A stretch of DNA of 45,055 nt from a virus: positions 1 through 45,055 of the IMG/VR virus record IMGVR_UViG_3300025818_000030; one strand, written 5' to 3'. This document shows positions 4,115 through 39,000 of the stretch, in pieces; within the stretch, counting starts at the first letter, position 1, and every line of letters begins with the position of its first letter. Made by a program: the position numbers and the translations under genes. Under the pieces are notes generated by a model. That model was not told the DNA's origin, ran no database searches, and worked only from the letters and a program-made list of their open reading frames with translations.

Positions 4115-4639
4115 ATGTCTGAAACTATTTATAAATGCCAAACCTGTGGCAAAGAATTCCAAAATCATCGTGCGCTAAACGCTCACCAAATCTCTCATAA
4201 AGATGGTCCACGCTATTCTGTAAAACGAGAACAAAAGAACCGAATAAATCCACGAACTTACGAATGTAAACAATGTGGCAAAGAAGCAATCTACGACAGT
4301 CGTAAGACTAACCAATACTGTAGTCAAGAATGTTCATCACAATCACAACGGGTACATCATGATCCAAATGAACGAAAACGAATTTTGAGAGCAAGAGCTA
4401 ATTCTCGTTTTATCAAGTATAAAATGAAAAAGAAAAATCAAACTCCACCAGATGCTGACCTTGACAAAATCAAAGAGATATACGAAAACTGCCCAGAAGG
4501 ACACCATGTAGACCATATAATCCCAATATCAAAAGGTGGATTACATCATCAAGATAATCTACAGTATCTAACTGCTGCGGATAATATCGCTAAAGGTAAT
4601 ATGATGCCCGATGAATGGGAAGAATATAAAAAGAAATAA
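4115..4639 (+). CDS. HNH homing endonuclease with zinc fingers
   Basis: A 174-residue free-standing HNH endonuclease inserted on the opposite strand between tRNA genes. It has a C2H2-like zinc finger at about residues 6-29 (CxxC ... H), a second four-Cys zinc module near 50-75 (CKQC ... CSQEC), a basic linker, and a C-terminal HNH domain at about 128-162 (HHVDHIIP ... NLQYLTAADN). Homing endonucleases of this kind cut related phage genomes and spread with their flanks. The ribosome site AAGGAG lies 7 bases before ATG. Its position among tRNA genes suggests it helps move or maintain the array (inference). Confidence 0.9.
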   Translation: MSETIYKCQTCGKEFQNHRALNAHQISHKDGPRYSVKREQKNRINPRTYECKQCGKEAIYDSRKTNQYCSQECSSQSQRVHHDPNERKRILRARANSRFIKYKMKKKNQTPPDADLDKIKEIYENCPEGHHVDHIIPISKGGLHHQDNLQYLTAADNIAKGNMMPDEWEEYKKK

Positions 4640-4644
4640 AAATT

Positions 4645-4800
4645 TGGTGGAGGATCGGGGAATCGAACCCCGGACTCAAGAATGCTCATTGAACCTTGAA
4701 GATTTCCCTTCGCAGTTCCCCAATGACGGGGCTATTTGCCCCGGAGACTTTTAGGAAGTCTCACATAAATCTTGTGTGTTCCCAACTATACCAATCCCCC
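4645..4800 (-). tRNA. tRNA-Ala(UGC) interrupted by an 81-nt insert
   Basis: Acceptor GGGGGAT/ATCCTCC contains the G3-U70 pair that marks alanine tRNAs. A73 and CCA are encoded, and the T-arm CGGGG/CCCCG has loop TTCGATT. The anticodon stem CAAGA/TCTTG is intact, but the loop is split: TTT at its 5' side, then an insert (4686-4766), then GCAT. Removing the insert gives the standard loop TTTGCAT, anticodon UGC. The exon length without the insert is 75 nt including CCA. Confidence 0.85.
4686..4766 (-). other. candidate miniature tRNA intron 1 (81 nt)
   Basis: The insert lies between tRNA positions 34 and 35. Order on the RNA: ATGT; hairpin 1 GAGACTT/AAGTCTC with a 5-nt loop; hairpin 2 CGGGGC/GCCCCG with loop AAATA; then TCATT pairing with AATGA at the very 3' end. 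This last stem encloses GGGGAAC ... GTTC and an inner GAAGG/TCTTC stem capped by GAAA. The related insert in the neighbouring tRNA keeps hairpin 1 and the enclosed core almost unchanged but has a quite different hairpin 2. It is too short for known group I or II introns. Confidence 0.75.
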
Positions 4801-4808
4801 AAAAAGAA

Positions 4809-4968
4809 TGGTGCCCGCACGAGGACTCGAACCCCGAACCTACGCATTACCTCTTGAACTTTGAAGATTTCCCTTCGCCGTTCCCCAGAACTGGATATTT
4901 TCATATCCAGGAGACTTTTATGGAAGTCTCGCAGAAGTGCGTTGCGCTACCAGTTGTGCCATACGGGC
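4809..4968 (-). tRNA. tRNA-Thr(UGU) interrupted by an 84-nt insert
   Basis: Acceptor GCCCGTA/TGCGGGC, A73, encoded CCA, T-arm CGGGG/CCTCG with loop TTCGAGT. The anticodon stem ACGCA/TGCGT is intact. The loop is CTT, then an insert at 4851-4934, then GTAA. Joining gives CTTGTAA, anticodon UGU. It stands directly upstream of the interrupted tRNA-Ala and shares its promoter at 4986-5014. If the insert boundary were one base earlier the anticodon would be GGU, but that tRNA is already present at 5212-5286. Confidence 0.85.
4851..4934 (-). other. candidate miniature tRNA intron 2 (84 nt)
   Basis: Homologous to the insert at 4686-4766 and in the same place (34/35). Order: CTGC; hairpin 1 GAGACTT/AAGTCTC with loop CCATAA; hairpin 2 CTGGATAT/ATATCCAG capped by a GAAA tetraloop (no sequence likeness to hairpin 2 of the other insert, yet also perfectly paired); then TTCT pairing with AGAG near the 3' end around the conserved core GGGGAAC, GAAGG-GAAA-TCTTC, GTTC. 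Conserved primary sequence in the core and conserved pairing elsewhere point to a functional RNA. Confidence 0.75.
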
Positions 4969-15966: not shown

Positions 15967-16299
15967 TCACAGGTTCTTGTCAATAATCCAATCCACTTCG
16001 TGCCAGTTAGTTTTTTCGTCCATCATTTCAACTTTATCACCGTGCAGTTCTTGTAACTGCGCCCAAATGTGAGCGTTGTTCATGCGAAGGCAATATGCTT
16101 CTTTGTGGCATCGATACACAGAACCAGACGAACCAATGAAGTCATAGTGGTGTTCGCCTTCTTCAACCTTTGTAATGCCACTGTTCATCTTCCAACTGTC
16201 TCCACCAAGGTATCCACCAGACCATCCAGCCAGAACACGATAATGTGGGTCATCACCTTTGATTTTGATAACTACCCAGTTGTCAGGATTATAAGTCAT
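15967..16299 (-). CDS. hypothetical protein (110 aa)
   Basis: Unrecognised 110-residue protein with many Trp, Gly and His residues, as in a small beta-rich domain (KIKGDDPHYRVLAGWSGGYL). Its ATG overlaps the kinase stop as ATGA, so it is the last gene of the RNA-repair operon's kinase unit. No membrane segment or known motif. Confidence 0.75.
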   Translation of the reverse strand: MTYNPDNWVVIKIKGDDPHYRVLAGWSGGYLGGDSWKMNSGITKVEEGEHHYDFIGSSGSVYRCHKEAYCLRMNNAHIWAQLQELHGDKVEMMDEKTNWHEVDWIIDKNL

Positions 16300-16760
16300 T
16301 TCACCACCACGATTTCATCAAAGCCTTCGCTCTTATCAGGCATTTCCAAACTATTCACCATATTGGCAAGAATATTCTTTGGAATGGTTTTACCAGGACG
16401 AGAGTTCAAACGGCGTTCCCATTCCTTCTTATCAGGAGTTGGAAATACCACTGCAACCTTGCGATAACCATCAGGAATCCGCATCAACTTACCTTTGCGA
16501 GACTTAATAGTAAGATTAGTCTGATCCCAATAGATATCATCATTCATCGCAATAGCATCAATTAACAGAATGTCCATATTAGATGTGGCGTTCTTAATCT
16601 CGTCCTTAAAGACATCATTGTAAGTCTTACCAAAGGTCTTTGCAGCCGCTTCAATGTAGTTATCAGTGCTTAACACAGATGCATTAGACAAGTCTTGCTT
16701 GGCAAGCCAAGTAGACTTACCAGAAGCAGGAACACCGATTAGCATATAAAGAGTGGGCAT
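16296..16760 (-). CDS. P-loop polynucleotide 5'-kinase-like protein
   Basis: A 154-residue P-loop kinase like the 5'-kinase domain of T4 Pnkp. Walker A is GVPASGKST at residues 9-17. The DN pair in LSTDNY and the C-terminal ERRLNSRPGKTIP region (lid arginines) fit this family. No phosphatase domain is attached. Such kinases add phosphate to 5'-OH ends of broken RNA before ligation. ATG 16760 is preferred to 16775 because GGAG lies 6 bases before it. It stands just downstream of the RNA ligase gene and has its own strong promoter. Confidence 0.8.
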   Translation of the reverse strand: MPTLYMLIGVPASGKSTWLAKQDLSNASVLSTDNYIEAAAKTFGKTYNDVFKDEIKNATSNMDILLIDAIAMNDDIYWDQTNLTIKSRKGKLMRIPDGYRKVAVVFPTPDKKEWERRLNSRPGKTIPKNILANMVNSLEMPDKSEGFDEIVVVK

Positions 16761-16782
16761 ATCTTTCTCCATCATTTAACTT

Positions 16783-16811: not shown

Positions 16812-16946
16812 TTATTCCATCAAATCCTTTAAAACTTTTTTCAATCGTTGGACAAAACCATACCAGCCAGGAGTGAAAACAGTTTTGGTTCCACCATTGA
16901 AGAAACCAGGTTCTGGCTTTCGTGATGTTTCAATCAAGTATTTCAT
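16812..16946 (-). CDS. small basic protein (44 aa)
   Basis: A 44-residue protein with Lys, Gly and aromatic residues (EPGFFNGGTKTVFTPGWYGF, then a basic helix). Its ATG overlaps the RNA ligase stop as ATGA, so it is co-translated with the ligase. It could bind RNA, but nothing proves this. Confidence 0.65.
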   Translation of the reverse strand: MKYLIETSRKPEPGFFNGGTKTVFTPGWYGFVQRLKKVLKDLME

Positions 16947-18169
16947 TCTTCATACTCCACTTCTTCAAAACGGATGTTGTTAAACAATGGACGAATCTTG
17001 TCCAACTTGGTTCCAGTACCAAGGTTGTTCTGGATGAAGTTGATAACCAAGTCACGAACATTCATCCCATCATATGCTTTAAATGCTACGCTGTGTAATC
17101 CAAAAGGAAGTTCACGAACCATTTCAGTTGCAAACATCTTCTTCTTATCACGATCTGCATCTTCAAACATTTCAAAATCTGGACGAGTCAAGTGACCAAA
17201 CATAGATAAGTTTCCATCGTCCAAGAACGACTTTGCATCAGCTACGAAAGCTTCAACCAAATCAATCTTTTCATTGACTTCTTTCCACAAATCAACCTCA
17301 AACGCTTCTACACGCTTGCGATCTTCTTCCTGTAAGAACGACTTCAAATCGTCAACATTCTCGTCAAGGATCAACGCCCACACATTCTTTTCCTGTGCGA
17401 TTGCTTCCTTTGCCTTGTGTAACTTCAAATAGTCTTCTGCCTTCACCTTAACCATGTGACCATCATCAAAGCGAACCACAAAACCTTCCACGCCAACCAA
17501 GCCACGAACATAATCCATGAAGTCAGCATCCAACTTGGAGTCGTGAACCTTCACAACAGGCACAAACCCCAAAGCAGCATCGCACATACGCTTGTAATCC
17601 CAATATTCACCAGTTGCGTTATCACGCATAGCCAGCAAAACCAAGTTATCTTCTGCGTAATCAATAACGATGCGGTTCTTACGAGAACACCACTCAAAGA
17701 TAGGAGTTACACCATGCTCAATCGCTGCCATAGCAAAAGCACGATAGTTCTGGTTCTCAGCAACGAAATCGTTCACAGGACCAGCAACATCAGTTGCACC
17801 CATTTTGGTGTGCCATTCAATGTCGCCATCACGCAAGAAAGGAGTGATCATTGATCCGTCCAACTTCTCAAGGATTACGTGAGGCTTGTCTAAATCAATG
17901 TTGTGCAGTTGAGTTTCGTCACGCTCGTTCACATTGAAGAACTTGTGAAACTTACGAGCAGCAACATAGCCATCCTTATCAAAAGTCAAGCCACGGCACT
18001 CACGACGAATATCCCAACCATCTTCGTCATCAGCGAAGGTGTCGGGAGTCTGAACCACATAGTTGATAACAGTAAAGCCATCACGCTCTGCCACGACAAA
18101 CTCCTTGCGTCCCTCAACGTGAGGAAGCACATCGTCAATGTGAGTAATGTGTGGAAACTTGTAGTTCAT
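16943..18169 (-). CDS. rnlA: T4 Rnl1-family RNA ligase
   Basis: A 408-residue ATP-dependent RNA ligase of the T4 Rnl1 type (T4: 374 residues). Nucleotidyl-transferase motif I is KLDGS with Lys102 (T4: KEDGS, Lys99), preceded by ECRGLTFD near 57-64. Downstream are FEWCSRKNRIVIDY (motif III region), VEGFVVRF (motif IV) and MVKVKAEDYLKLH (motif V). These enzymes seal 3'-OH/5'-P RNA ends, classically tRNAs cut in the anticodon loop by host defence nucleases. With the neighbouring kinase it forms an RNA healing and sealing pair. It is read from the promoter at 18195-18222. Confidence 0.92.
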   Translation of the reverse strand: MNYKFPHITHIDDVLPHVEGRKEFVVAERDGFTVINYVVQTPDTFADDEDGWDIRRECRGLTFDKDGYVAARKFHKFFNVNERDETQLHNIDLDKPHVILEKLDGSMITPFLRDGDIEWHTKMGATDVAGPVNDFVAENQNYRAFAMAAIEHGVTPIFEWCSRKNRIVIDYAEDNLVLLAMRDNATGEYWDYKRMCDAALGFVPVVKVHDSKLDADFMDYVRGLVGVEGFVVRFDDGHMVKVKAEDYLKLHKAKEAIAQEKNVWALILDENVDDLKSFLQEEDRKRVEAFEVDLWKEVNEKIDLVEAFVADAKSFLDDGNLSMFGHLTRPDFEMFEDADRDKKKMFATEMVRELPFGLHSVAFKAYDGMNVRDLVINFIQNNLGTGTKLDKIRPLFNNIRFEEVEYEE

Positions 18170-18194: not shown

Positions 18195-18222
18195 ATTATA
18201 GCATAACTGCGGTGTTTGTCAA
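18195..18222 (-). promoter_or_regulatory. sigma70-like promoter (consensus)
   Basis: Minus strand: TTGACA 18217-18222, 16-bp spacer ending TGC, TATAAT 18195-18200. It drives the RNA ligase gene. It overlaps the 3' end of the restriction-enzyme-like gene. Confidence 0.9.
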
Positions 18223-18857
18223 GTGTTTTTGAATCCTACCCAATGTTCTGGGCTAACAAGAACAATATCTTCTTTAAGAATAACCCATCCTTCTCGTAAT
18301 TTCTTTTTACCAGAACTTCTTAGAGAGCACGATGGTGTTGTTTTTGACCCAACACTCCCAGAACTAGGCACTCCCCAATCATCTTCAACTAAGGAATTGG
18401 TATATGTAACTCCTATAACTTGCGGAATATTGTCAAAAAAGTTCCAAATAACATTAAGTACTTTTGTTGTTTGGCGATGATGTGCAGATGCGTTGGTGTC
18501 AATCTTTTCTCTCGCTAATAATGCTTTTACATCAAATCCCCCCGGTCCCAAGTAATTTTCTGTTGTCGGATTATCTATCCAAGGCTGGGCTTCTGGAATA
18601 TTTGGAAGAATGTCCGGGTATCCATCGCCACAGGGATTTTCGACTAGGGTTTCATTAGTGGCACACATATACGAGGCAAATGACTCAGCTATACCGCCCG
18701 ATTGATTGCGAACTGGTATGTGATTCCACGGATGAAATTTAGAAATTTTAGCATATTCGTCCACCATCAATTTATTCCATCCATTTACGGTATTATATAT
18801 GGCATCCCTCGTTGTATCGTCCAATGAACAGTTTTGATTTAATTTATATGTTAGCAT
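18219..18857 (-). CDS. putative type II restriction endonuclease-like protein
   Basis: A 212-residue protein placed back to back with a DNA methyltransferase. It has a possible PD-(D/E)xK nuclease core: Pro81-Asp82 in GDGYPDI and, 26 residues on, Asp109-Val-Lys111 in GGFDVKA. An upstream Glu (ESF, near 58-60) could complete the metal site. The length fits type II restriction enzymes. The family is assigned from motif spacing and context, not from clear homology. It starts at ATG 18857 behind AGGAAAA. It may cut host or rival DNA, with the methylase protecting the phage (inference). Confidence 0.6.
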   Translation of the reverse strand: MLTYKLNQNCSLDDTTRDAIYNTVNGWNKLMVDEYAKISKFHPWNHIPVRNQSGGIAESFASYMCATNETLVENPCGDGYPDILPNIPEAQPWIDNPTTENYLGPGGFDVKALLAREKIDTNASAHHRQTTKVLNVIWNFFDNIPQVIGVTYTNSLVEDDWGVPSSGSVGSKTTPSCSLRSSGKKKLREGWVILKEDIVLVSPEHWVGFKNT

Positions 18858-18908: not shown

Positions 18909-18935
18909 ATGTCATTATACAAGGAATGCTATTTT

Positions 18936-19820
18936 ATGTCAAGTAAAAACTACGAATTAGTAACATCTGACAGTTTATCATACTTAGAACAAATGAATGA
19001 CCAATCAATTGATTGCGTAATGACTGATCCGCCGTATGGTATTGACCAAATGGATGGTTCGTGGGATGATGAAAAGATTTCCAAGTCCAAAGACAAAGCA
19101 AAGGTTGTTGGTAATATTCCTGTCGGGATGAAATTTGATCCAGAAACATCTAAGAAACTGGTTGAGTTTCTAACTCCCATTACACAAGAGTTATATCGTG
19201 TGTTGAAACCGGGCGGATTTTGTCTTATGTTTAGCCAATCCAGAAGTTCCCATAGAGTTGGATGCATGCTTGAGGACTGCGGTTTTGAGTTGCGTGACCA
19301 GTTGATTTGGGACTATGGTGCTGGTCAAGGTAAAGCACAGGATATGAGTAATTTTATTAAGAAGAATAATGAACTTACACAAAACGAGAAAGAAACGTAT
19401 TTGCGGAAACTTGAAGGAAAAAAGACTCCGCAACTTACTCCAACATTCGAAACTATTTGGTTAGCTCAAAAACCAAAAGATGGAAAGTTTTGGGAAAATT
19501 ACATCACGCACGGTGTGGGGTTGATTAATGTATTTGGAACACCATCAACAGTGAAGTTTGAGTATAAAAAACCTGCGAAAGATGAAAGAAAAGATACAGC
19601 AAATCATCCAACGCAAAAGCCAGTTGCACTAATGGAAGAGTTAGTCCAAGTATTCACCAAAGAAGATGATGTAATCTTAGACTGCTTCAACGGTAGTGGA
19701 ACAACTGGCGTTGCGGCTATTCGTAATAGCAGACAATATATCGGTATTGATAAGTCAGAAGATTATATAGAAGCGACAAAGATCAGACTTGAAAAAACAC
19801 CGCTGTCATTATTCTTTTAA
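18936..19820 (+). CDS. DNA (adenine/cytosine-N4) methyltransferase, DPPY type
   Basis: A 294-residue amino-methyltransferase. Catalytic motif IV is DPPY at 31-34, near the N-terminus, and the SAM-binding motif FNGSGTTG lies at 251-258. This order (IV before I) is the beta class. The target-recognition part is in the middle. ATG 18936 is used because AAGGA precedes it and the promoter starts RNA after ATG 18909. The divergent neighbour is a putative restriction enzyme, so the pair may be a phage-borne restriction-modification system. It ends convergently with the next minus-strand gene, overlapping it by 4 bases. Confidence 0.9.
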   Translation: MSSKNYELVTSDSLSYLEQMNDQSIDCVMTDPPYGIDQMDGSWDDEKISKSKDKAKVVGNIPVGMKFDPETSKKLVEFLTPITQELYRVLKPGGFCLMFSQSRSSHRVGCMLEDCGFELRDQLIWDYGAGQGKAQDMSNFIKKNNELTQNEKETYLRKLEGKKTPQLTPTFETIWLAQKPKDGKFWENYITHGVGLINVFGTPSTVKFEYKKPAKDERKDTANHPTQKPVALMEELVQVFTKEDDVILDCFNGSGTTGVAAIRNSRQYIGIDKSEDYIEATKIRLEKTPLSLFF

Positions 19821-20325: not shown

Positions 20326-21036
20326 CTAAAAGATTACATCAACTGACGACAACTTGCCGCCCTTACCAGCACCAGTATCTACGAACACTGCCTTACCACC
20401 TTGCGAACCAACTTTAGTCAGTACATCGTCGCCAACAACTTCGTGACCGACGAACACAGTGTGACCAGCAGGGATATCATCAACCCAATCGTGGATGCGA
20501 ATGGGCATCCCATCATCCTTGAAACCATCAACCTGACCGTAGAACGCCCGACTAACAGCCTTACCCTTACCCTTCTTATCCTTGAACAGAACAACCTTAT
20601 CGTCCAGCATAACAGGGTGGAAGGAACCGTGGGCGAAGGTGAAATCACCCATCGTCGCCCACACAGGGAAGTCAGGAGCCATCTTGTGGAACATAGCCTT
20701 GATGGTATCGCCGCCGGGAGCAGCATCCAACTGAGCCAGAGTCAGGTCCAAACCGTGGGCGATCTTGACGCCATTACCGTTCAAGTGCCGCCACAACTTG
20801 TCATCGTGGTTGCCCATAACAAGGCTAACAGCACCAACGGAAGCCGCCGTCAGAACGAAACCCAGCACCTTATCGGAAGAGGGACCACGATCAGTCAGGT
20901 CACCCAACAGAATGGGATGCAGATTCTTATCACGTGCATCGTTTAGTATATCCATCAGCATATCGAACTCACCGTGGATATCACCGATAACACGGAAGCC
21001 CTTGAAATCTGCCTTGATTCTGTCAAAGTCAAACAT
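20326..21036 (-). CDS. calcineurin-like metallophosphoesterase
   Basis: A 236-residue protein phosphatase-like metallophosphoesterase with all key blocks: GDIHG at 18-22, GDLTDRG at 45-51, GNHD at 75-78, and late hist-containing blocks FAHGSFH and VFVGHEV. It is close in size and order to phage lambda serine/threonine phosphatase and to diadenosine tetraphosphatases; substrate not decidable. ATG 21036 is chosen (GGAG 6 bases before) over 21051. GC content is higher than in the cargo genes. It follows a consensus promoter. Confidence 0.9.
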   Translation of the reverse strand: MFDFDRIKADFKGFRVIGDIHGEFDMLMDILNDARDKNLHPILLGDLTDRGPSSDKVLGFVLTAASVGAVSLVMGNHDDKLWRHLNGNGVKIAHGLDLTLAQLDAAPGGDTIKAMFHKMAPDFPVWATMGDFTFAHGSFHPVMLDDKVVLFKDKKGKGKAVSRAFYGQVDGFKDDGMPIRIHDWVDDIPAGHTVFVGHEVVGDDVLTKVGSQGGKAVFVDTGAGKGGKLSSVDVIF

Positions 21037-21059
21037 TCTTTTCTCCATCAACTATAATC

Positions 21060-27004: not shown

Positions 27005-30000
27005 ATGGCATTACGTAAAACTATTGGTCTATTACCTGAAATTTTCAGAACAGATAGAAACGAAAAGTTTCTTAATGCGACTATTGACCAACTAGTAACA
27101 CCAGCATTACAGAAAAAAATCAATGCCTATGTTGGTCGTAAGTTTGCTCCATCATACTCTGCTGGTGACCAATATGTTGTAGAACCATCTACTACTCGCC
27201 AGAACTATCAGTTAGAACCAGGTATCGTATATACCCACCGCCAAGAAGTTGGAGGTCAAGCAACAGATCGTATTGAATATCTATCAAACTACGTTGATAT
27301 GCTTAACCGTGTTAATGTTCTCGGCGGAAATATCGATAACCATGATAGGATATTTGAGAATGAATATTACACTTGGTCTTCATTCTTTGACTTTGATAAG
27401 TTCGTAAACTTCTCCCAGTATTACTGGTTAGCAAATGGTCCTGACCCAGTTCAGGTATTCAACTCTATTATTGATATGGAAGCGGATTACGAGGTAACTC
27501 GTGTTGATAATGAAAGTGCTTATTTCATCAACGCAAGAAACTCTGTGAATAATCCAACCATCACATTAGCAAGAGGTGGAACATATAACTTTGAGGTTGG
27601 GCAACAAGGTTTCCCATTCTGGATTCAAACTGAACCAGGCTTATCTGGAACCAAGGCAATCCAAGACAATATTTCCACACGTGATATTCTTGGTGTTGTG
27701 AATAACGGTGATGACCAAGGTGTTGTAACATTCAATGTGCCTACTGCGGATGCACAAAACTTTTGGATTGGCATGACTAAAGTTGACGATGTAGATTATG
27801 CTACCCGTCTTACATATAGCGAAATAAACAACCAACAGTTCAGTGCCTTTATCGCAGCGAACCCAGATGGTTTTGATGGTATTACCGATATTAGAAATAT
27901 AGACAATGCTACATTAGTATTCTATAATGAAGATGCAAATGAATCTGAAGAAAACTGGGAATCTGGTGGACTATTTGACGCTGATGAAACAGGGTTTGAT
28001 AACGATGCTTATCCGTTTGACCCAACAACGTATATTCCAGCGGACGAAAGATATGATATCTATAGAATCAATATTGATACCAATAGTGAACGCAGAGACA
28101 GATTCAACAATATGCCTGATAGCGACGTTGACCTTGCTTATTATGGTGCCTTCGTAGATATTGAAAATAAAGTTATTGATAATACCATTTCTATTGATGG
28201 TGTTACTGGTTCCGATTTGGTTGGTAAGACTATAGTATTCGTTACCCCAACTACTGATGATACATTATGGATTGCCGAAGGCGCTTTTGATGAAGGTGTT
28301 GGCGGCTACGACACAGAAAACTTTGGTATGGACGGTGAAAGTTATACTGCCGTTGCTACTAATGAGCGTTACAATGTGTGGACCATAACTAGCAAAACTG
28401 TAGATGGTGTTGATAGATTTTCATTATCAAGTAATACCGCACTAATCCGTGTGAACGAAAAAGTTTCTATTACCGAAGGTGATGATCATATCGGCAAAGA
28501 GTTCTATAAAAAGGATGAATATCTATTCCTAGTTCCAACAAACTTCTTCCCACTAAACGATGGTGTTATTCAGTTAACGTATCTAAAGAATATTCCGCAG
28601 AATCAAAAAATCCTTGTTGCTCGTGGTGAAGAGTTTGGTAACCTTGAGTTCTGGAAGAACGCACTTGATAAACTAGAAAAAGTTCCAGTTATCACTGCAC
28701 CACTAACAAGATACTTCTATCAGGATGGTATTGATTCGGAGCGGTTCGGTATTATTGATATTGTAGAAGCTGGCGAAGTTCCCGTTCTTGACGTTGAAAA
28801 CGATATTATTGGGCAGAACGAATACATTAGCTTGAACAAAGTTGAGTTTACAAACGGAATGAAAGTTTCGTTTGATACCAACAATGTTGTTTCTGAGTAT
28901 TATGCTGGCAGAGACTTCTATGTTGAAGGTGTTGGGCAACCTGATGGTATCAGCCTAACCCCCGTTGATGAGCTTATCGTTCCTGAAACTTATGTTGATA
29001 CTGAAGAAGAGGGTTTCGATGTAAACGACTTTGACACAACCGGATATGCTGGTTCAATCAGTGCCCCGTTATCACCAGATTATTTCACAATCAACCGTTC
29101 TTCTAAAGACCGCAATGCATGGTCCAGAGCAAACCGTTGGGTTCATATTGATGTCATTGAGAAGACAGCAGAATATAACGATTTCAGTTCTGTATTGGAC
29201 CAGAATAGCAGAGCAAATCGTCCAATCATTGAGTTCGAACCAAACCTACAGCTATACAAATATGGACGAGTATTCAAGCAAGTTGTGACCTGTTTTGATA
29301 GCACACAGATAGACGCATTATCAAATGTTGAGGGTAAGGCTGGTTACTTCGTTGATGGTATTCCGCTTCTAAACGGGGTTACTGTTATTTGGGCGGCAGA
29401 CGAAGACCCAATCGTGCGTTCCAAGATTTACGAAGTATCCATTATTGACCCAGATGATGACGGCAACGAACAAATCCATATGACCGAAGTTGCTGATGCT
29501 GAAGTAAATGATACTATCATCGTTACTAACGGTTCTACCAGACAGGGTACGATGTTACATTATGACGGCGATGGATGGGTTGAATCACAACAAAAAACAC
29601 AACTAAACCAAGAACCATACTTTGATATCTTTGATACAGATGGAAACAGTTTCAGCGATGATAGCATCTATTTCGGTACAGGTTTCACAGGAACAAAACT
29701 ATTCAGTTATCAGCGCCAATCTTCAGCAGTAGAAGACAGTGTGCTTGGTTTCGGTCTAAGCTATAAAAACTTTGAGAATGTTGGTGATATCATTTTTGAG
29801 AACAACTATGTTCGTGATAAGTTTACCTATTCACCAAATGATATTATTGTAAAAAAACCTATCAATGACGGTTTCGTTCATCGTATTATTGACCGCAATA
29901 CTGTTGAAATCAAAAACGATTGGAACAAAGTAAATAGAAATACTCGCCAATATCAGATTGCGGAGTATTCAGTAACTGATGACGAACTACAAGTATTCCA

Positions 30001-33000
30001 ATCACCAATCGCGCCTAAAAGTGATGAACTGGAAACAGTAAACCTATTCGTTTATAAGAATAGTACACTTCTAAAGCGCGATACTACACAGAATATTACT
30101 AACTTTGTAGATACAGATTATACTACACTATCACAGGATGGAAACTTCTACATCATCCTTGATGAGCCAGCGGCAGTTGGCGACCAGATTACTATTCGTG
30201 TATACGCCGATGATGTTGGTGACTTTGGGTTCTATGAAATTCCACAGAACCTAGAGAACAACGCTAAGAATGAAGACTTTACAACACTTACACTTGGGCA
30301 GATTAGGAACCACATTACACAAACCTCGCAAAACTCAAGTGTATTCTTTGGTGATAGTCCTGGTCGCAGTAACCTTCGTGATGTAACAAACCTAAAAGAC
30401 TTTGCTGGAACTATTCTACAGCACAGTGCTGGTGCCCATTTCGGTGCGTTCTTACTAAGCGATGAAAACATCAACTTTAAACACAACGAAAAGCATGTTC
30501 ATAATGCTAACGCCGTTATCAGTATTGATTATGCCCAGCGTGAATACAGCAAGTTTAAGCAAAAGTTCTATGATGCTATAAGCACACTTGACCTAAACTT
30601 TGATGATATCCCAGGATGTGTGGATGCTGTTATCAACGAACTAAAGATTGGTAAGAGTGAAACATTCCCATTCTTCTACAGTGATATGATTGGTTATGGT
30701 GAAGACAATACCACAACCACATATACAATCACTAACCCAGAGATTAGAACATATGATTACGGAACATATTTTGATAATAGCGTTCCAAGTAATCGTTCTG
30801 TGCTTGTATATCTAAATGGAACACAACTATACCTAACAACCGATTACACCTTTGACCAAGACGGTGCTATCATTACATTCACCGATGATACCACACTAAG
30901 CATTGGTGATACATTACAGATTGTTGATTACAATAATACCGATGGTTCATTCATTCCACCTACTCCAACAAAGATGGGTATGTATCCAAAGTTCCGTCCA
31001 GAGATTTACACAGACAATACATTTAGAACACCACAGACAGTTATTCAGGGTCATGATGGTTCTATCTTCGTAGCGTTTGGTGATAGTCGTGACCAAGTTA
31101 TTTTAGAACTAGAAAAACGTATCTACAATAACATCAAAACAACTTACACAACCGATGTGTTTGATATTCATAATCTTGTAGGTGGTAAGTTCCGCACAAC
31201 TGATTATACACGAGCAGAGATTGATGATATTCTAAGCGTGAACTTTCTTCGTTGGGCAGTTCTAAACAAAGTTGATTATGCTGACCAGACAGGATATGAT
31301 ATCCAAGACAAGTTCACATGGAACTGGTCAAACTTTACCGATAAAGTTGACGGGGAACTTCTACCAGGTCATTGGCGTGGTGTTTATCGTTATTTCTACG
31401 ATACAGACCGTCCACATACACACCCTTGGGAAATGCTCGGTCTAAGCGAAAAGCCATTATGGTGGGATGACCGTTATGGTGCTGCCCCATACACAAAAGG
31501 TAACGAAGTGCTATGGGAAAACTTGCGTGACGGTAAACTATTCCAAGATGCTGCTGGTGAAGATTACACAATCTTGGAAAACTATAAGCGTCCAAACCTA
31601 ATGAGCATCATTCCAGTTGATGTGAACGGTAGATTGGTTGACCCACTTGTTTCCGTAGTTGCGGCATATAATACCACATATACACAAGAACCATATAGTT
31701 TTGGTGATGTTGGTCCAGCAGAAAGTGCTTGGAGAAGAAGCAGTGAATATCCATTTGCTTTGATGAGACTTGCCGCTCTAACGAACCCAAGTAAGTTCTT
31801 GCTAACACGCTTTGATACTGATAATATTATTCGCAATACAACGCTTGACCAGATTGTTAATAAAACAACCCTAAAGCGTATCAAGCCACAGAATATGATT
31901 ATTCACGGAACACTTGATGATGATGGTAATGTAAATCGTGTGAATGGTATTTCACAAATCATTAGTGATTATGCCCGTCACCGTAACGTTGATTTACATA
32001 ATATCCAAGAGGTATTGGAAGCCCTTGTTCTAAAACTAGTTTATCGTGTTGGTGGTTATACCGACAAACGTTTCCTAAAAGTGCTTGCGGAACAGGTATC
32101 GCCAACATCCACGAACAAAGGTATCTTCATTCCAGACGATGATTTCGAGATTGAGCTAACCAAATCCAATCCTATTACCAGTGTTACACTAAGTGGTGTT
32201 ATTGTTACCAAAACAAACAGTGGTTGGACAGTTCGTGGCTACGATTATGAGAAACCATACTTTGATATCATCCCAAGCGAGATTACACAAAACCGTTATA
32301 CCATTTCTGGCGGGGATGCTAATGGCGTTGTATATAGAGATTTCAAGAACGAAGTTCTTCGTATTCCATATAATACAGAGTTCACTAACCCACAGCAGGT
32401 AGTTGATTTCTTTGTTTCTTATCAACGTTATCTACGACTACAGGGATTTGTATTCGATGAAGTACTTGAAGACGAGGTTGGATCGCTAACCAAAGATTGG
32501 ATTCTTTCTGCGAAAGAGTTTCTATTCTGGCAGTCACAAGGCTGGAATGTTGGTTCAACAATTGTGCTGAACCCCGTAGCAATTAGTGTGAAGTTTGAAC
32601 TATTTGGAACAACACCTGATGACCTTGGTGGCGAAGGACTAAACTATAAAGTTCTAAACCAAAACCTAAAACCAATCCGTTATAATCAGCTTGAAGTAAA
32701 GCGTGTTGATAACCTATTCACCGTAACATCAAGTGAGGACGCTGGTCCTATCTTTATGATTGAAATCAATCCAGTTCAGTATGAACACACCATCGTATTC
32801 AACAATATAACCGTGTTCAATGATGTTCTTTACCAGCCACAGCTTGGTTCCCGTCAGTATCGTCTAAAACTTATCGGTACGAAAACTGCTGGATGGGATG
32901 GTTCATTCCAAGCACCCGGTTATGTATTCAACAATGATGTTACCGCAACGTGGCAACCTGGACGAGATTACAAGAAGGGTGACTTTGTTATCTTCCGTAA

Positions 33001-36000
33001 GAAAACTTATGTATGTGTGAAAGACCAAGATGCGCTACAGGTATTTGACCATGAATACTGGACACACACCGATAATATTAAGCTAGGTCTTCGTCCAAAC
33101 TTGGATACCCTATCTAACAGCTTCACAACCTTCTATGATATGGACACACAAAATAACGAGAGTGAGTTTGATAGATTCGGTAAAGGTCTAATCGGTTATC
33201 AGAAGCGTGATTACCTAGAAAACCTAGAACTTGACGATGTATCACAGGTGAAGTTCTATCAGGGAATGATTCGTCAGAAAGGTACAAGTTCTGCTATCAA
33301 TAAACTTATTCGTGCCCAGTTGGATAACCAAGATAGCGATATCAACTTCTTTGAAGAATGGGCATTCCGTATTGGTGAGTATGGTGCGATTGACGCTAAC
33401 CAGATAATCGAAGTAGAGCTAAACGAAAATCAGTTCAAGTCTAACCCAGAACTCATTGAGTTCCTAAACAACGGTGAAGATAGACCGCAACACATTTCAT
33501 ACATTCAAGATGATCTATTCAAGACGCCAAATGAATATACCAAGAATATCTTTACTAACCGTTCTGGTGGTTCTAATACTAAACTAGATATTACTTCCGC
33601 TGGTTTCCCAAGACTTGATGATGTTAGCGTAACGCTATTTGATATCAATAACATTTCATCATTGAACCAGTACATCAACAATGTGGGTAGCGGATATACT
33701 ATCTGGACCGCTAAAAACCTAGCAAGTGTTTGGGATGTATTCAGAGTATCCGAAACATTCGTGAAGGTAACAGAAGTCGTTGATAAACTTGACGATGAAG
33801 TGGTTGTTCGCACAGATAGAAACCATGACTTAGAAGTAAATGACTTTGTTGCTATTCGTGGAACAGAAACTATCCTTGACGGCTTCTATAAAGTTCTATA
33901 CATCGTTTCTAATGTGGAGTTCATTGTTTCCCTAGAACAAAATGAACTTAGTGAAACAGACCTTGATGGACTATTACTAAAACTAGAAAGCATTCGTTAT
34001 AGCGAACCAAAAGATATTGCTGGTTTCAATCCTCTACTTGGTTGGCAGGATGCCGAAAAAACATGGTTGGAAAATAATGCCGATGGTAAATGGGAAGTTC
34101 TAAAGAAACAATCACCTTGGGACTTTGGTACAAATGTTGCTTATAGTGCCGTTGCTGGTGATGATAATCTTGGTACTTGCTTCAGTGCTTCAGAAAGAAA
34201 TCTATGGGCAGTTGCGGGTATTCCAAATAACGGCACAGGTAAAGTTATCTCATATGTAAAAACTGTATCAAACGATTTCAGTGAAAACGCAATCTTTGAC
34301 CCAAGTGATGTATCTCAAATCAGCGGGTTTGGTACAAGCGTGAGTGCTGGTAACAGTGATTACTTTGCGGTTGGCGCACCAACGGCTAATGGAACCCGTG
34401 GTTATGTATTCATTTATAAACGCACACAGGCAAGCACATTCGCAGTACATCAAATCCTAAGAGCAAGTGATGCAGCAGTTGGCGACCTATTCGGCACAAG
34501 CGTTTCACTAAGTGACGATGAAAAATGGTTGTATGTAGGTGCCCCGGGAGCAAGTAAAATCTATGCATACGCATTTGATGAAATCTCATCATCCAATGAA
34601 GCAGTTGTTACTGAAGAAGGTGACGGTATCAAGACCAGTTCAACACTATTCTGGTTCCCAGAAACCATTGATAATATTCAGGTGATTGACGACGATGGTC
34701 GTATCTATGTTCCGTATGTTGATTACACCCTAAGTGGTAATGTTGTAAACTTCACGTTTACACTTAACTCTTTAAAAGATTATGTTATTCGTCGTGTATC
34801 TCTATATAGAAATATTGATACAATCGTGCGTGATGCGAACCCAGAAGACACCGCAGCAGATAATCTAGGTCAAACCATAGAAACAACCAGTGATGGTAAA
34901 GTTATTGTTTCTGGTGCGCCAAACCGCCGTTATGTTGGTAGTGATAGCACAGTAGTTACTGGCGCTGGTGCCGCATATGTATTTGAGAGAACAGAAGAAG
35001 TATTCAACGGTGATGGAACAACAACCACATTCACGCCAACAGGCACACTATGCCCACAAAGACTACTAAATGTGTATCTAAACAATGATCTAAAACTATA
35101 TACAGTGAACCTTGCTCTACCGGGAAGCGATAGTCAGTTCGGTGATTATACCATTAGTGGTAATAGTATCGTATTTCGTGATGCTCCAAGCAGTGATGAA
35201 CTTGTGAAGATTGAGGTGAATGATTTCATTCAGGTTCAGCGTTTGGATGCGCCTGACCCAGCAGACAGTGATTTATTTGGTAATGATATCACAATCAATG
35301 AAGACGCAAACTGGATTGCTGTTGGTGCCCCTGGTGAAGATGCTAACAATACAAACACAGGTTCTGTATATGTTTATGCGGAACAGTCCCGCCGTTATGG
35401 AACGATTACTGGTGAAACAGACCCAACAATCGTGAGTGGTGATAAGTTCCGTATCAATGATGTAGTTGTTTCTCTAACTGGAACAGACCTTGATACAGTG
35501 TTGGCGGATATTGACGGTTTGAGTATTTCTGGTGTATCAACATCAGGTGATGATTCCCTAACGATTGATAGTGAAAGTGTAATCACAGGAAATAAACTCC
35601 GTGTCATGCCGCTTTCTGGTGACACCTATAAGAACCTTGGATTAGAACCTTATGCTATGGTTCAGCGCATTGACCATCCACAGGCATATGAGAATGAAAA
35701 CTTTGGTCTTGCTGTTGATATTGACCGTTCAGGTAACTTCTTGGTAGTCGGTTCTAATCGTGCTTCCACAATCAACACCCTTCGTTTTGATGTTGACGAG
35801 GACGATATTGAGACAACAGTATTTGATAGCAATAGCACTAAGTTCTATGACCGTGAAAACCAAAGCGGTGCCGTATATGTATATGACCTATTAGAAAGTT
35901 GGAATGAAAGTGTTACAGACCCAGCACAGTTTGGCTACATTCAGCAACTACAGTCCGATACGATTGAGCAGTTTGACGAGTTTGGTTCCAGTGTGAATAT

Positions 36001-39000
36001 CCGTTCTGGTAAGATTGTTGTTGGTTCTCCAAAATACGATAAGTCAAGTAGCATTGAGAACAGCGGTATTCTTTATGAATATAACAACCCATCCGAGGAA
36101 AAGGGTTGGATAACACTACGTGAAGAAGATGATAAAGTAGATGTGGAACTACTAAACAAAGTATTCATATATAATCGTCGTAAGAATGAAATCGTAGAAT
36201 ATATGGATTGGATTGACCCAATCAAGGGTAAAGTAAGCGGTCTTGCCCAGCAAGAACTATCATATATCGTTGAGCGTGACCCTGCTAACTACAATGTAAA
36301 TACCAATCAAAAGAATACATTGACTACCCAAAGTCATTGGGGTGAAAAACAGGTTGGGCAACTATGGTGGGATGTATCCACTGTTCGCTATATTGATTAT
36401 GAACAAGGCGAACTATCATATCGCTCTCAGCAATGGGGTGCGAAGTTCCCAGGTTCAAGCATTGATGTATATGAATGGGTAGAAAGTAATAATCCACCAA
36501 GTTCATATTCTGGCGAAGGCACACCAAAATACATAGATAATAGCAGTTATGTTGAGGTTCAGACATACAATATCAATACTGATACAGTAACATCCAAATA
36601 CTACTTCTGGGTGAAAGACCTTACCGAAGCACCAAATCTTGGATTCAGAAAACTTGGTTCATCAACGGTTGCCCGTATTATTGATAATCCAAAAACCTAT
36701 GGTCTAAAATACCTAAGTGTTATTAAGGACAATGCTATCATTGCTTATAATATTGCTGGTGATTTGGAAGACCGCGATACAATCCTTCACATCAACTATG
36801 ATGTTATCAAGAACAGCAATGTTCTACATAGTGAATATCAGTTGGTAGCAGAAGGTGACCCACAAAGTATTATCAATGATAAGATTTACAATAAGTTCGT
36901 GGATAGTTTATCTGGAACAAACGCACAGGGTGATGCTGTTCCACAACGCACATTAAGCACAGCCGAAAGATATGGTGTTCTATATCGTCCAAGACAGACA
37001 ATGTTTGTTGATAAAGATACAGCGGTAGAACTATTCGTAACATTCTGTAACGAAGTATTTGCGAAGTATCAAGTCGCTAATCAGTTCGACTTAGGAACTA
37101 TTTCAAGTGCTGAACCTATTCCTGGCGAACAAAGCGGCGAATGGGACGAAAGTGTTAACACATATGCAGAATTAACATATATAAACGCACTCGTATTCTC
37201 TACTGGATATAAGGTTCTTGTGTTACAGAATGAAACAGTAGAAAATCTATGGACTATCTATACACTCCAAGAAGATAACACTTGGATACTAACTAGAGTC
37301 CAAGCGTATGATACTAACAACTACTGGGAAAGAACAACTTGGTACGCCGATGGATTTACAGAAAATACTGTTGTTACATATGCTGTCGAGACAGAGCCAG
37401 ACCTAGAAACGATACGCTCAACGCTTACAAATGGTGATTTGGTAAAAATTAAGAGTAATGACGAAGGTGTTGCTAGTATTGTTCAGCTTCAGGACGATGG
37501 TACTTTCTTAGAAGTTGTTGTGGAAAACGCGACCATTAAGCTAAAGCGTTCATTATTCGATAACAGTGTAGAAGCAACTGGTTTTGATAATGCTGGTTTT
37601 GATAATGGGCTATTTGAAAAACGCCCAGTTACCGAGATTCGCAAGATTATTGACGCAGTAAAGAATGATATTTTTGTTGAAGACATTCGTTCAGAATGGA
37701 ACCGTCTATGGTTTACCATGATTGAATATATTCTAACAGAACAACCATATGCTGATTGGCTATTCAAAACATCATTCATCAAGGTTGTTCAGAAACTTCG
37801 TGGTCTAGACCAATATCCAAACTACCAGCGTGATAACCAAGATTACATTCGTGATTATATCAATGAAGCGAAACCATATCGTACCAACATCCGTGAGTAC
37901 ATTCTACAGTACACCAAGGATGATCCTTGGGATGGTGATGTAACTGACTTTGACGTTCATAGTTACTATGACACGGATCGTGATTATTATCGTAAGCCAT
38001 CTGGTGAAAAATCAGGTGACGCCGCACTATGGCTACAAGGACTAAACTCACCTTGGGGTAACAACTATACCTATGAACTTGGTTCAGTAAGTATTATCAA
38101 CAGCGGTTCTGGTTATCTTATTCCACCAGTTATCACAGTTGTTGGCGGCGGCGGAACAGGTGCTACCGTAGAAGCAAAAACAAACGGCGACAGAATCTTG
38201 AGCGTAACAGTTACCAATCCTGGCTCTGGCTACGTTACCACGCCAACATTCACTATTGAGGGTGTTGGTTCTGGTCTAGAGATTTATCCTAACCTAATCA
38301 ATGGTAAGGTTCGTGAGTTTGACCAAACACTCAAGTTTGACCGTATCACATATAGCTCAACAGTTATTGAGTGGACGGCAAATACTTCTTATGATGTAAA
38401 TGATATCGTTTCATATAACGGTGAAGCATATATCGTTGATACAGCATTTACGAGTGGTTCCACATTTGATGCTGCTAATATGAGCATCTATGCCGATGAA
38501 AACTTTGATAATAACGCTGATCGTATCCAAGCATATTACAAACCAACCGAAGGAATGATTGGTAAGGATATTACACAACTACAGTTTGGAACAGATTATC
38601 CTGGTGTTCGTGTATACGGACCAGACTTCTCAGCTAACCCTGGTTTTGATGTTGGTGCGTTTGATGTTGACCCATATGATTCATTTGAGATTGACGAAAA
38701 TGGTATCACTATTATCAGTGGATCAAGCGCCCTTGATACAATCATTCGTTCAAACTACACAGATGCGGCGCTAGGAACAGCACCGGAAGATATCAATGTT
38801 GCGGGTGGTGACTTCGTAGATACATATAACTCACACGCACCAGAAGAGTTCGTTCCTGGTATTATCTTTGATACACTTGACTTGAAAGTGTATTCACTAC
38901 CTGGTCAGGATGGTGCGTATGACGGCAACGCAGCACGTATCTATACCAACTTTGTTACAGCAGATGGTTCCACAGCCGCATATTCATATCGTGGTGGTTC

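Follow-up and report, generated by a model that had tools for sequence, protein, structure and literature searches.

Bacterial tRNA-Leu(UAA) and some other bacterial tRNA genes are interrupted by group I introns at the bond between nucleotides 34 and 35, with a U at the 5' splice site. Group I introns in tRNAs are about 200 nt or longer, contain a P3-P8 core, and end in G. The phage inserts described here share the bond and the U, but they are only 80-84 nt, are coreless, and do not match the Rfam model RF00028. The tRNA introns of archaea and eukaryotes, which depend on a bulge-helix-bulge and TSEN/EndA, are also small, lie in the anticodon loop, and have exons that are joined by a ligase. 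However, the phage inserts are at another position, have no bulge-helix-bulge, and come from phages with no EndA-type protein. A third point of comparison is the repair of tRNA-Lys by Pnkp and Rnl1 in phage T4, in which a host nuclease nicks the anticodon without any RNA being removed (PMC3400036). Both phages considered here encode a kinase, a phosphatase and an Rnl1-type ligase that could join breaks in an anticodon loop, although in our reading a structured insert would have to be removed.

The one published precedent that we found for unclassified inserts in giant-phage tRNAs is in the Lak megaphages (Devoto et al. 2019, PMC6784885). Like the inserts described here, those of the Lak phages are short, lie in the anticodon loop, belong to no Rfam class, and are of unproven splicing. 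In contrast to ours, the Lak inserts that we read are located about two nucleotides later (near 36/37), consist of a hairpin and a tRNA-like minihelix, and end with the boundary AGC/AA. We found no Lak-type minihelix near 36/37 in the 80-84 nt inserts. In Lak-C1 and Lak-A1 (L133 3064-3223; L135 8338-8524 and 16004-16168), the common plan is a short hairpin, ATTAAACT, and the tRNA-like minihelix. Most of these end in AGC before AA, and they are possibly a second family.

Minihelix or hairpin inserts are also present in the anticodon loops of tRNAs from the jumbo phages Atu_ph07, Salicola phage SCTP-2 and an IMG/VR phage (G016). These differ from the 80-84 nt family in length (32-48 nt) and position (35/36, or 34/35 in tRNA-Leu(UAA)), and are unrelated to it in sequence and fold. 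The tRNA-Leu(UAA) genes of two jumbo phages have hairpin inserts of 34 nt (IMG/VR 3300023235_000008, L132 17510-17625) and 32 nt (L286 9684-9799) at bond 34/35; the sequences differ and the stem is kept. Inserts of approximately 45-48 nt near 35/36 are found in tRNA-Asn(GUU) and tRNA-Lys(UUU) (L304, L305 and L307; Atu_ph07 323905-324023 and 68159-68280, SCTP-2 298729-298847). Most of these are minihelix-like, with a T-arm-like hairpin, and end in AAAAG or AACAG before UAA.

The DNA analysed here (the window) is a phage fragment of 45,055 nt and makes up an entire IMG/VR record. The phage is kin to Agrobacterium phage Atu_ph07 and Sinorhizobium phage Phosso, and the window has an array of more than 20 tRNA genes on the minus strand. 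Two neighbouring genes on this strand, tRNA-Thr(UGU) (4809-4968) and tRNA-Ala(UGC) (4645-4800), are each split after U34. The 5' exon of tRNA-Thr (nucleotides 1-34; 4935-4968) ends in C32-U33-U34, and its 3' exon (nucleotide 35 to CCA; 4809-4850) follows an 84-nt insert (4851-4934). Similarly, the 5' exon of tRNA-Ala (nucleotides 1-34; 4767-4800) ends in U32-U33-U34, and an insert of 81 nt (4686-4766) separates it from the 3' exon (nucleotide 35 to CCA; 4645-4685). In both genes the acceptor, D, anticodon and T stems are complete, CCA is encoded, and only the anticodon loop is split. The G3:U70 identity pair in the acceptor stem of the Ala gene was read directly.

The Rfam tRNA model spans both loci with the inserts in place (Ala, 4648-4800, 43.5 bits, E 6e-8; Thr, 4812-4968, 43.2 bits, E 7e-8). 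ARAGORN in its default no-intron mode detected neither split gene; its intron mode recovered tRNA-Thr(tgt) with an 84-nt intron and misparsed the Ala gene. The joined exons align without gaps, at 78-80% identity overall, to uninterrupted phage tRNAs. The joined Thr exons match tRNA-Thr of Vibrio phage phi-ST2 at 61 of 76 positions and the joined Ala exons match a Synechococcus phage tRNA at 60 of 75, both end to end. The joined exons of a homologous tRNA-Val from a sister phage (below) match an uninterrupted phage tRNA at 59 of 76 positions without gaps, and an alignment of the Ala exons to a Bacillus phage tRNA-Ala(tgc) has small gaps (58/76). Thus, removal of the insert yields a canonical tRNA that is collinear with uninterrupted homologues, which is the general criterion for a tRNA intron. 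There is no second tRNA-Ala or tRNA-Thr(UGU) gene in the window.

The inserts have a common plan, seen in four of four copies (two of them from the sister phage): a leader NUGN, hairpin 1 (GAG...CUC), hairpin 2, a linker, and a longer, irregular hairpin 3. Hairpin 2 begins on the base next to hairpin 1. Hairpin 3 consists of a basal stem, a G-rich bulge, an inner stem, an internal loop NGN/AAR, and a GAAGG/YCUUC stem that is usually closed by a GAAA loop, and the 3' splice site is the end of the 3' strand of its basal stem. In the Thr insert (covariance model R1, 98 bits), the leader is CUGC (4931-4934) and is followed by hairpin 1, GAGACUU-CCAUAA-AAGUCUC (4911-4930), hairpin 2, CUGGAUAU-GAAA-AUAUCCAG (4891-4910), and hairpin 3 (4851-4890), with basal UUCU/AGAG, a GGG bulge, GAAC/GUUC, and GAAGG-GAAA-UCUUC. 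In the Ala insert (R1, 104 bits), the leader is AUGU (4763-4766), hairpin 1 is GAGACUU-CCUAA-AAGUCUC (4744-4762), and hairpin 2 is CGGGGC-AAAUA-GCCCCG (4727-4743). Its hairpin 3 (4686-4726) contains UCAUU/AAUGA, a GGG bulge, GAACU/GGUUC, a GC/AA loop, and GAAGG-GAAA-UCUUC. All of these elements are on the minus strand. There is no protein gene inside the inserts. The conserved unpaired residues are NUGNGAG, the GG bulge and the NGN/AAR loop; the 5' start is NUGN and the 3' ends are GAG, UGA, AUC or UGA.

Pairing is better conserved than sequence in several of these elements. Hairpin 2 is 8, 6, 7 and 7 bp in the four inserts, with different sequences and perfect pairing each time. Its own arms are 100% paired, vs 60% after exchange between copies, and the probability of an equally long hairpin in same-base shuffles is 5.5e-5 (Thr) and 3.7e-4 (Ala). 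The arms of the hairpin 3 basal stem are likewise 100% paired, vs 70% when swapped between copies, and hairpin 1 is altered in sequence in the Leu insert of the sister phage with its pairs retained. The innermost GAAGG/YCUUC stem has no covariation at all and is therefore no proof of the fold. Folding energies are well below those of dinucleotide shuffles for Thr (z -3.3), Ala (z -3.7) and Val (z -3.4); the Leu insert folds little better than its own shuffles (z -1.6). The initial annotation, made from sequence alone, had described two adjacent tRNA genes split at 34/35 by structured inserts of 81 and 84 nt, and the Rfam model, the exon alignments and the folding of the inserts bear this out; we assign 84 nt to Thr and 81 nt to Ala. 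Its claims that hairpin 2 is unrelated in sequence yet perfectly paired, and that the 3'-terminal stem covaries, also held, the former now for all four copies and the latter for the hairpin 3 basal stem. The proposed shared core GGGGAAC...GTTC failed as an invariant, since the Val homologue has GGTATAC...GTTA.

The leader could pair with the first nucleotides of the 3' exon, much like P10 in group I introns. On direct reading, the Ala leader could pair with GCAU of its 3' exon (4/4), and the Thr leader could form three of four pairs with nucleotides 35-38; with Val (4/4) and Leu (2/4), the count is 13 of 16. Swapped controls reach 34 of 48 in the same hand count, barely lower, so the pairing is only suggestive: it remains possible and is without statistical support.

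We searched for relatives in viral contigs and genome contigs (pattern and protein scans) and in phages (blastn). A DNA pattern scan of the viral contigs gave 65 stretches, one of which was real: a tRNA-Leu(UAG) with an 82-nt insert (R1, 99 bits) in the 230-kb record IMGVR_UViG_3300023235_000008. The covariance model R1, built from the Thr, Ala and Leu inserts, found a fourth member on the same contig, a tRNA-Val(UAC) with an 80-nt insert (65 bits, E 1e-13). The insert is at position 34/35 in all four tRNAs. This contig belongs to a relative of the window phage (the sister phage), with the same gene order and with long shared genes that are mostly 58-83% identical in protein sequence. We saw no second intact Val or Leu(UAG) gene in the sister phage, whose record is a fragment. 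In the window phage, the genes for Val(UAC) and Leu(UAG) are not interrupted, and their anticodon loops (CTTACAT and TTTAGGT) are exactly those that insert removal would give in the sister-phage genes; the two phages therefore present filled and empty sites. The Ala insert is 81% identical to the sister phage's Val insert and 78% identical to the adjacent Thr insert. Because the Ala insert is nearer to a Val insert in another phage than to its own neighbour, insert movement from one kind of tRNA to another is probable. In this view, the element would be one that moves between tRNAs, with close copies occupying different tRNAs in two related phages.

We found no further members in the viral contigs, genome contigs or phage collection; the remaining matches were coding sequence or chance. 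R1 had no match in three Lak genomes (Lak-A1, A2 and C1) or in Phosso, Atu_ph07, SCTP-2, B23 and RaK2, and none in 38 related records, although 14 of the 17 of these that were scanned with the tRNA model showed no tRNA. With only four members from two related phages, sequence conservation partly reflects recent ancestry. Our sample is further limited in that both phage records are fragments and there are no RNA data. The position of the inserts, their boundaries, their shared fold, their homologues in other tRNAs and the empty-site counterparts are nonetheless established.

The inserts fit no known RNA family or intron class among those tested. No Rfam family was found at the inserts, even at E 5, and there was no covariance-model match to known self-cleaving ribozymes (hammerhead, HDV, twister, pistol and others) up to E 5. 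A group II intron was rejected because the inserts have no GUGYG/AY-type ends, are 80-84 nt, and have no Rfam match. Hairpin 3 resembles group II domain V (GAAC..GUUC and a GAAA loop), but the other domains are missing. By eye, NUGNGAG suggested a hammerhead, a reading rejected because one core base is missing, as is the GAAA that should follow the second stem. A weak tmRNA match at the tRNA-Ala locus (23.9 bits, cut-off 47) was set aside, since the D-arm, the anticodon stem and the Thr partner are normal.

Based on these results, we conclude that the inserts, placed between nucleotides 34 and 35 of jumbo-phage tRNAs, are likely introns of a new and very small class (80-84 nt) that are removed from precursor RNA. 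Excision is inferred, in the absence of RNA data. It is the most economical reading because a paired insert persists at a single bond in four different tRNAs whose bodies are otherwise intact, and sister genes exist without one. The suggestion in the initial annotation of a very small new class of tRNA intron is thus supported by identical-site homologues, empty sites, covariation and the absence of an Rfam match, although this does not demonstrate removal, and we found no support for self-splicing in particular. That annotation had proposed a covariance-model search, which we ran with R1 on phage records and which added one member (the Val insert of the sister phage). It also held that the idea would be refuted if the element occurred outside tRNAs as an ordinary repeat; no such occurrence was found, and four of four copies are in tRNAs.

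How the inserts would be removed is less certain. We favor a cut-and-ligate route over self-splicing, but at slightly less than even odds; the route is inferred and the nuclease is not identified. The insert is inferred to fold as three adjacent hairpins behind the 4-nt leader, and this fold, together with the intact anticodon stem, would keep the splice sites U34 and N35 close. A nuclease that recognizes the fold, encoded by the phage or by its host, would cut the RNA on the 3' side of U34 and on the 5' side of N35. The resulting cyclic-phosphate and 5'-OH ends would be healed and sealed by the phosphatase, kinase and Rnl1-type ligase that the phage encodes, so that the exons are joined.

The window encodes candidates for the healing and sealing steps, all on the minus strand. 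The candidate exon joiner is a T4 Rnl1-like RNA ligase (16943-18169; PF09511, E 5e-32; T4 RNA ligase 1 in the PDB, E 7e-29) that is 60% identical to its counterpart in the sister phage. A polynucleotide-kinase-like AAA_33 protein (16296-16775; 61% identity in the sister phage) is the candidate 5'-OH kinase, and a Pnkp-type metallophosphatase (20326-21051; PF00149) is the candidate remover of 2',3'-phosphate. The best solved relative of the phosphatase is 4j6o_A (E 1.6e-20), deposited as a metallophosphoesterase, which we take to be the phosphatase domain of bacterial Pnkp. The Pnkp-like PHROG 8238 matches the phosphatase, kinase and ligase in separate parts, and the three proteins are conserved in both phages. 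No splicing endonuclease was identified in either phage, and PADLOC found no anticodon-nuclease-type defence protein among ten window proteins. RNA ligases are present also in jumbo phages in which no such inserts were seen, so the ligase is not a specific partner. The inserts of 32-48 nt in other jumbo phages are too small for ribozymes and therefore hint at general protein machinery.

Several other genes lie near these or the tRNAs. Overlapping the kinase gene is one for a 110-aa unknown protein (15967-16299) that has few relatives in phages and is 74% identical in the sister phage, above the conservation of the kinase and ligase. The interrupted tRNA-Leu of the sister phage is preceded, at a distance of about 500 nt, by the gene for a ligase/nucleotidyltransferase-like protein (L132 12652-13305; weak PF01068). 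A C2H2+HNH endonuclease gene on the plus strand of the window (4115-4639) is directed towards the tRNA-Ala gene and stops 6 nt short of it. This could be a free-standing homing endonuclease; as a homing partner of the introns it was rejected, as no such gene lies beside the sister phage's inserts; no counterpart of it was found in that phage. Elsewhere in the window, a Type II restriction-enzyme-like gene (PADLOC, E 3e-23) adjoins a divergent N6/N4 DNA methylase (18219-18857 and 18909-19820), possibly a phage-borne restriction-modification pair. A single ORF of 4,541 aa (27005-40630) is 66-70% identical in the sister phage.

The main rival for the mode of removal is that the insert, at about 80 nt, is itself a ribozyme, self-splicing or self-cleaving, and needs no protein to leave the precursor. 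We lean against this, although it ranks second among the routes. In its favor are the compact conserved fold, the conserved unpaired residues, the absence of an internal protein gene and the apparent mobility between tRNAs. Also in its favor, a probable HDV-like ribozyme (theta-type) lies immediately 3' of tRNA-Ala in the sister phage, and ribozyme-based tRNA processing may thus exist in the lineage. That match (L132 15658-15725; RF02682, 41.5 bits, cut-off 44, E 1e-5) lies after tRNA-Ala and before the intron-bearing tRNA-Val, and resembles the tRNA-linked theta ribozymes (PMC10879173). Against a ribozyme, the inserts have no Rfam ribozyme or intron match, no group I core and no terminal G, and to our knowledge there is no natural self-splicing RNA of about 80 nt. 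A bolder form of the idea, an autocatalytic intron of 80-84 nt that represents a new ribozyme class moving between giant-phage tRNA genes, is no more than a possibility. Degenerate or minimal group I introns are a narrower version that we consider virtually ruled out. The U before the 5' splice site and a leader that might act like P10 would fit, and bacterial tRNA-Leu(UAA) group I introns occupy the identical 34/35 site. However, 80-84 nt is too short for P3-P8, RF00028 is not matched at the inserts, and the terminal G is not constant (the last bases are G in Thr, A in Ala, C in Leu and A in Val). The model itself performed as it should: it detected a genuine group I intron of 213 nt at another locus of the sister phage (102789-103001, 105.8 bits).

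Two further readings fit less well. Introns of the archaeal or eukaryal type, cut by a splicing endonuclease at a bulge-helix-bulge, would agree with the small size and the anticodon-loop location, but we regard them as highly improbable. The position is 34/35 and not 37/38, the predicted folds have no 3-4-3 bulge-helix-bulge at the sites, and neither phage has a PF01974 protein. A search for PF01974 found none in the window, the sister phage or the other insert-bearing phages and did detect the archaeal controls; a host enzyme is not excluded. Alternatively, and as the chief sceptical view, the inserts might be retained, and the genes might be decaying or might make misfolded or decoy tRNAs that, for example, bind or block host anticodon nucleases. 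In favor of this, no spliced RNA has been seen (there being no RNA data), both phages have an RNA-repair kit, and anticodon-loop changes that counter the anticodon nucleases of the host are known from phage tRNAs (PMC10264068). We nevertheless think that retention is unlikely. The exons preserve full tRNA structure as well as the identity pairs and encode CCA, the same bond is split in four different tRNAs, and the joined exons are gapless relative to uninterrupted phage tRNAs. In addition, neither phage showed a second, intact gene for the tRNAs that are interrupted in it (Ala and Thr(UGU) in the window, Val and Leu(UAG) in the sister phage). Removal of the inserts therefore remains our preferred reading.

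If this reading is correct, there are functional phage tRNAs that standard finders miss without an intron mode, since ARAGORN at its default settings missed both genes here. Moreover, if a conserved insert of 80 nt is excised, it would be either the smallest natural self-splicing RNA or the substrate of a phage-encoded protein pathway for tRNA splicing in bacteria.
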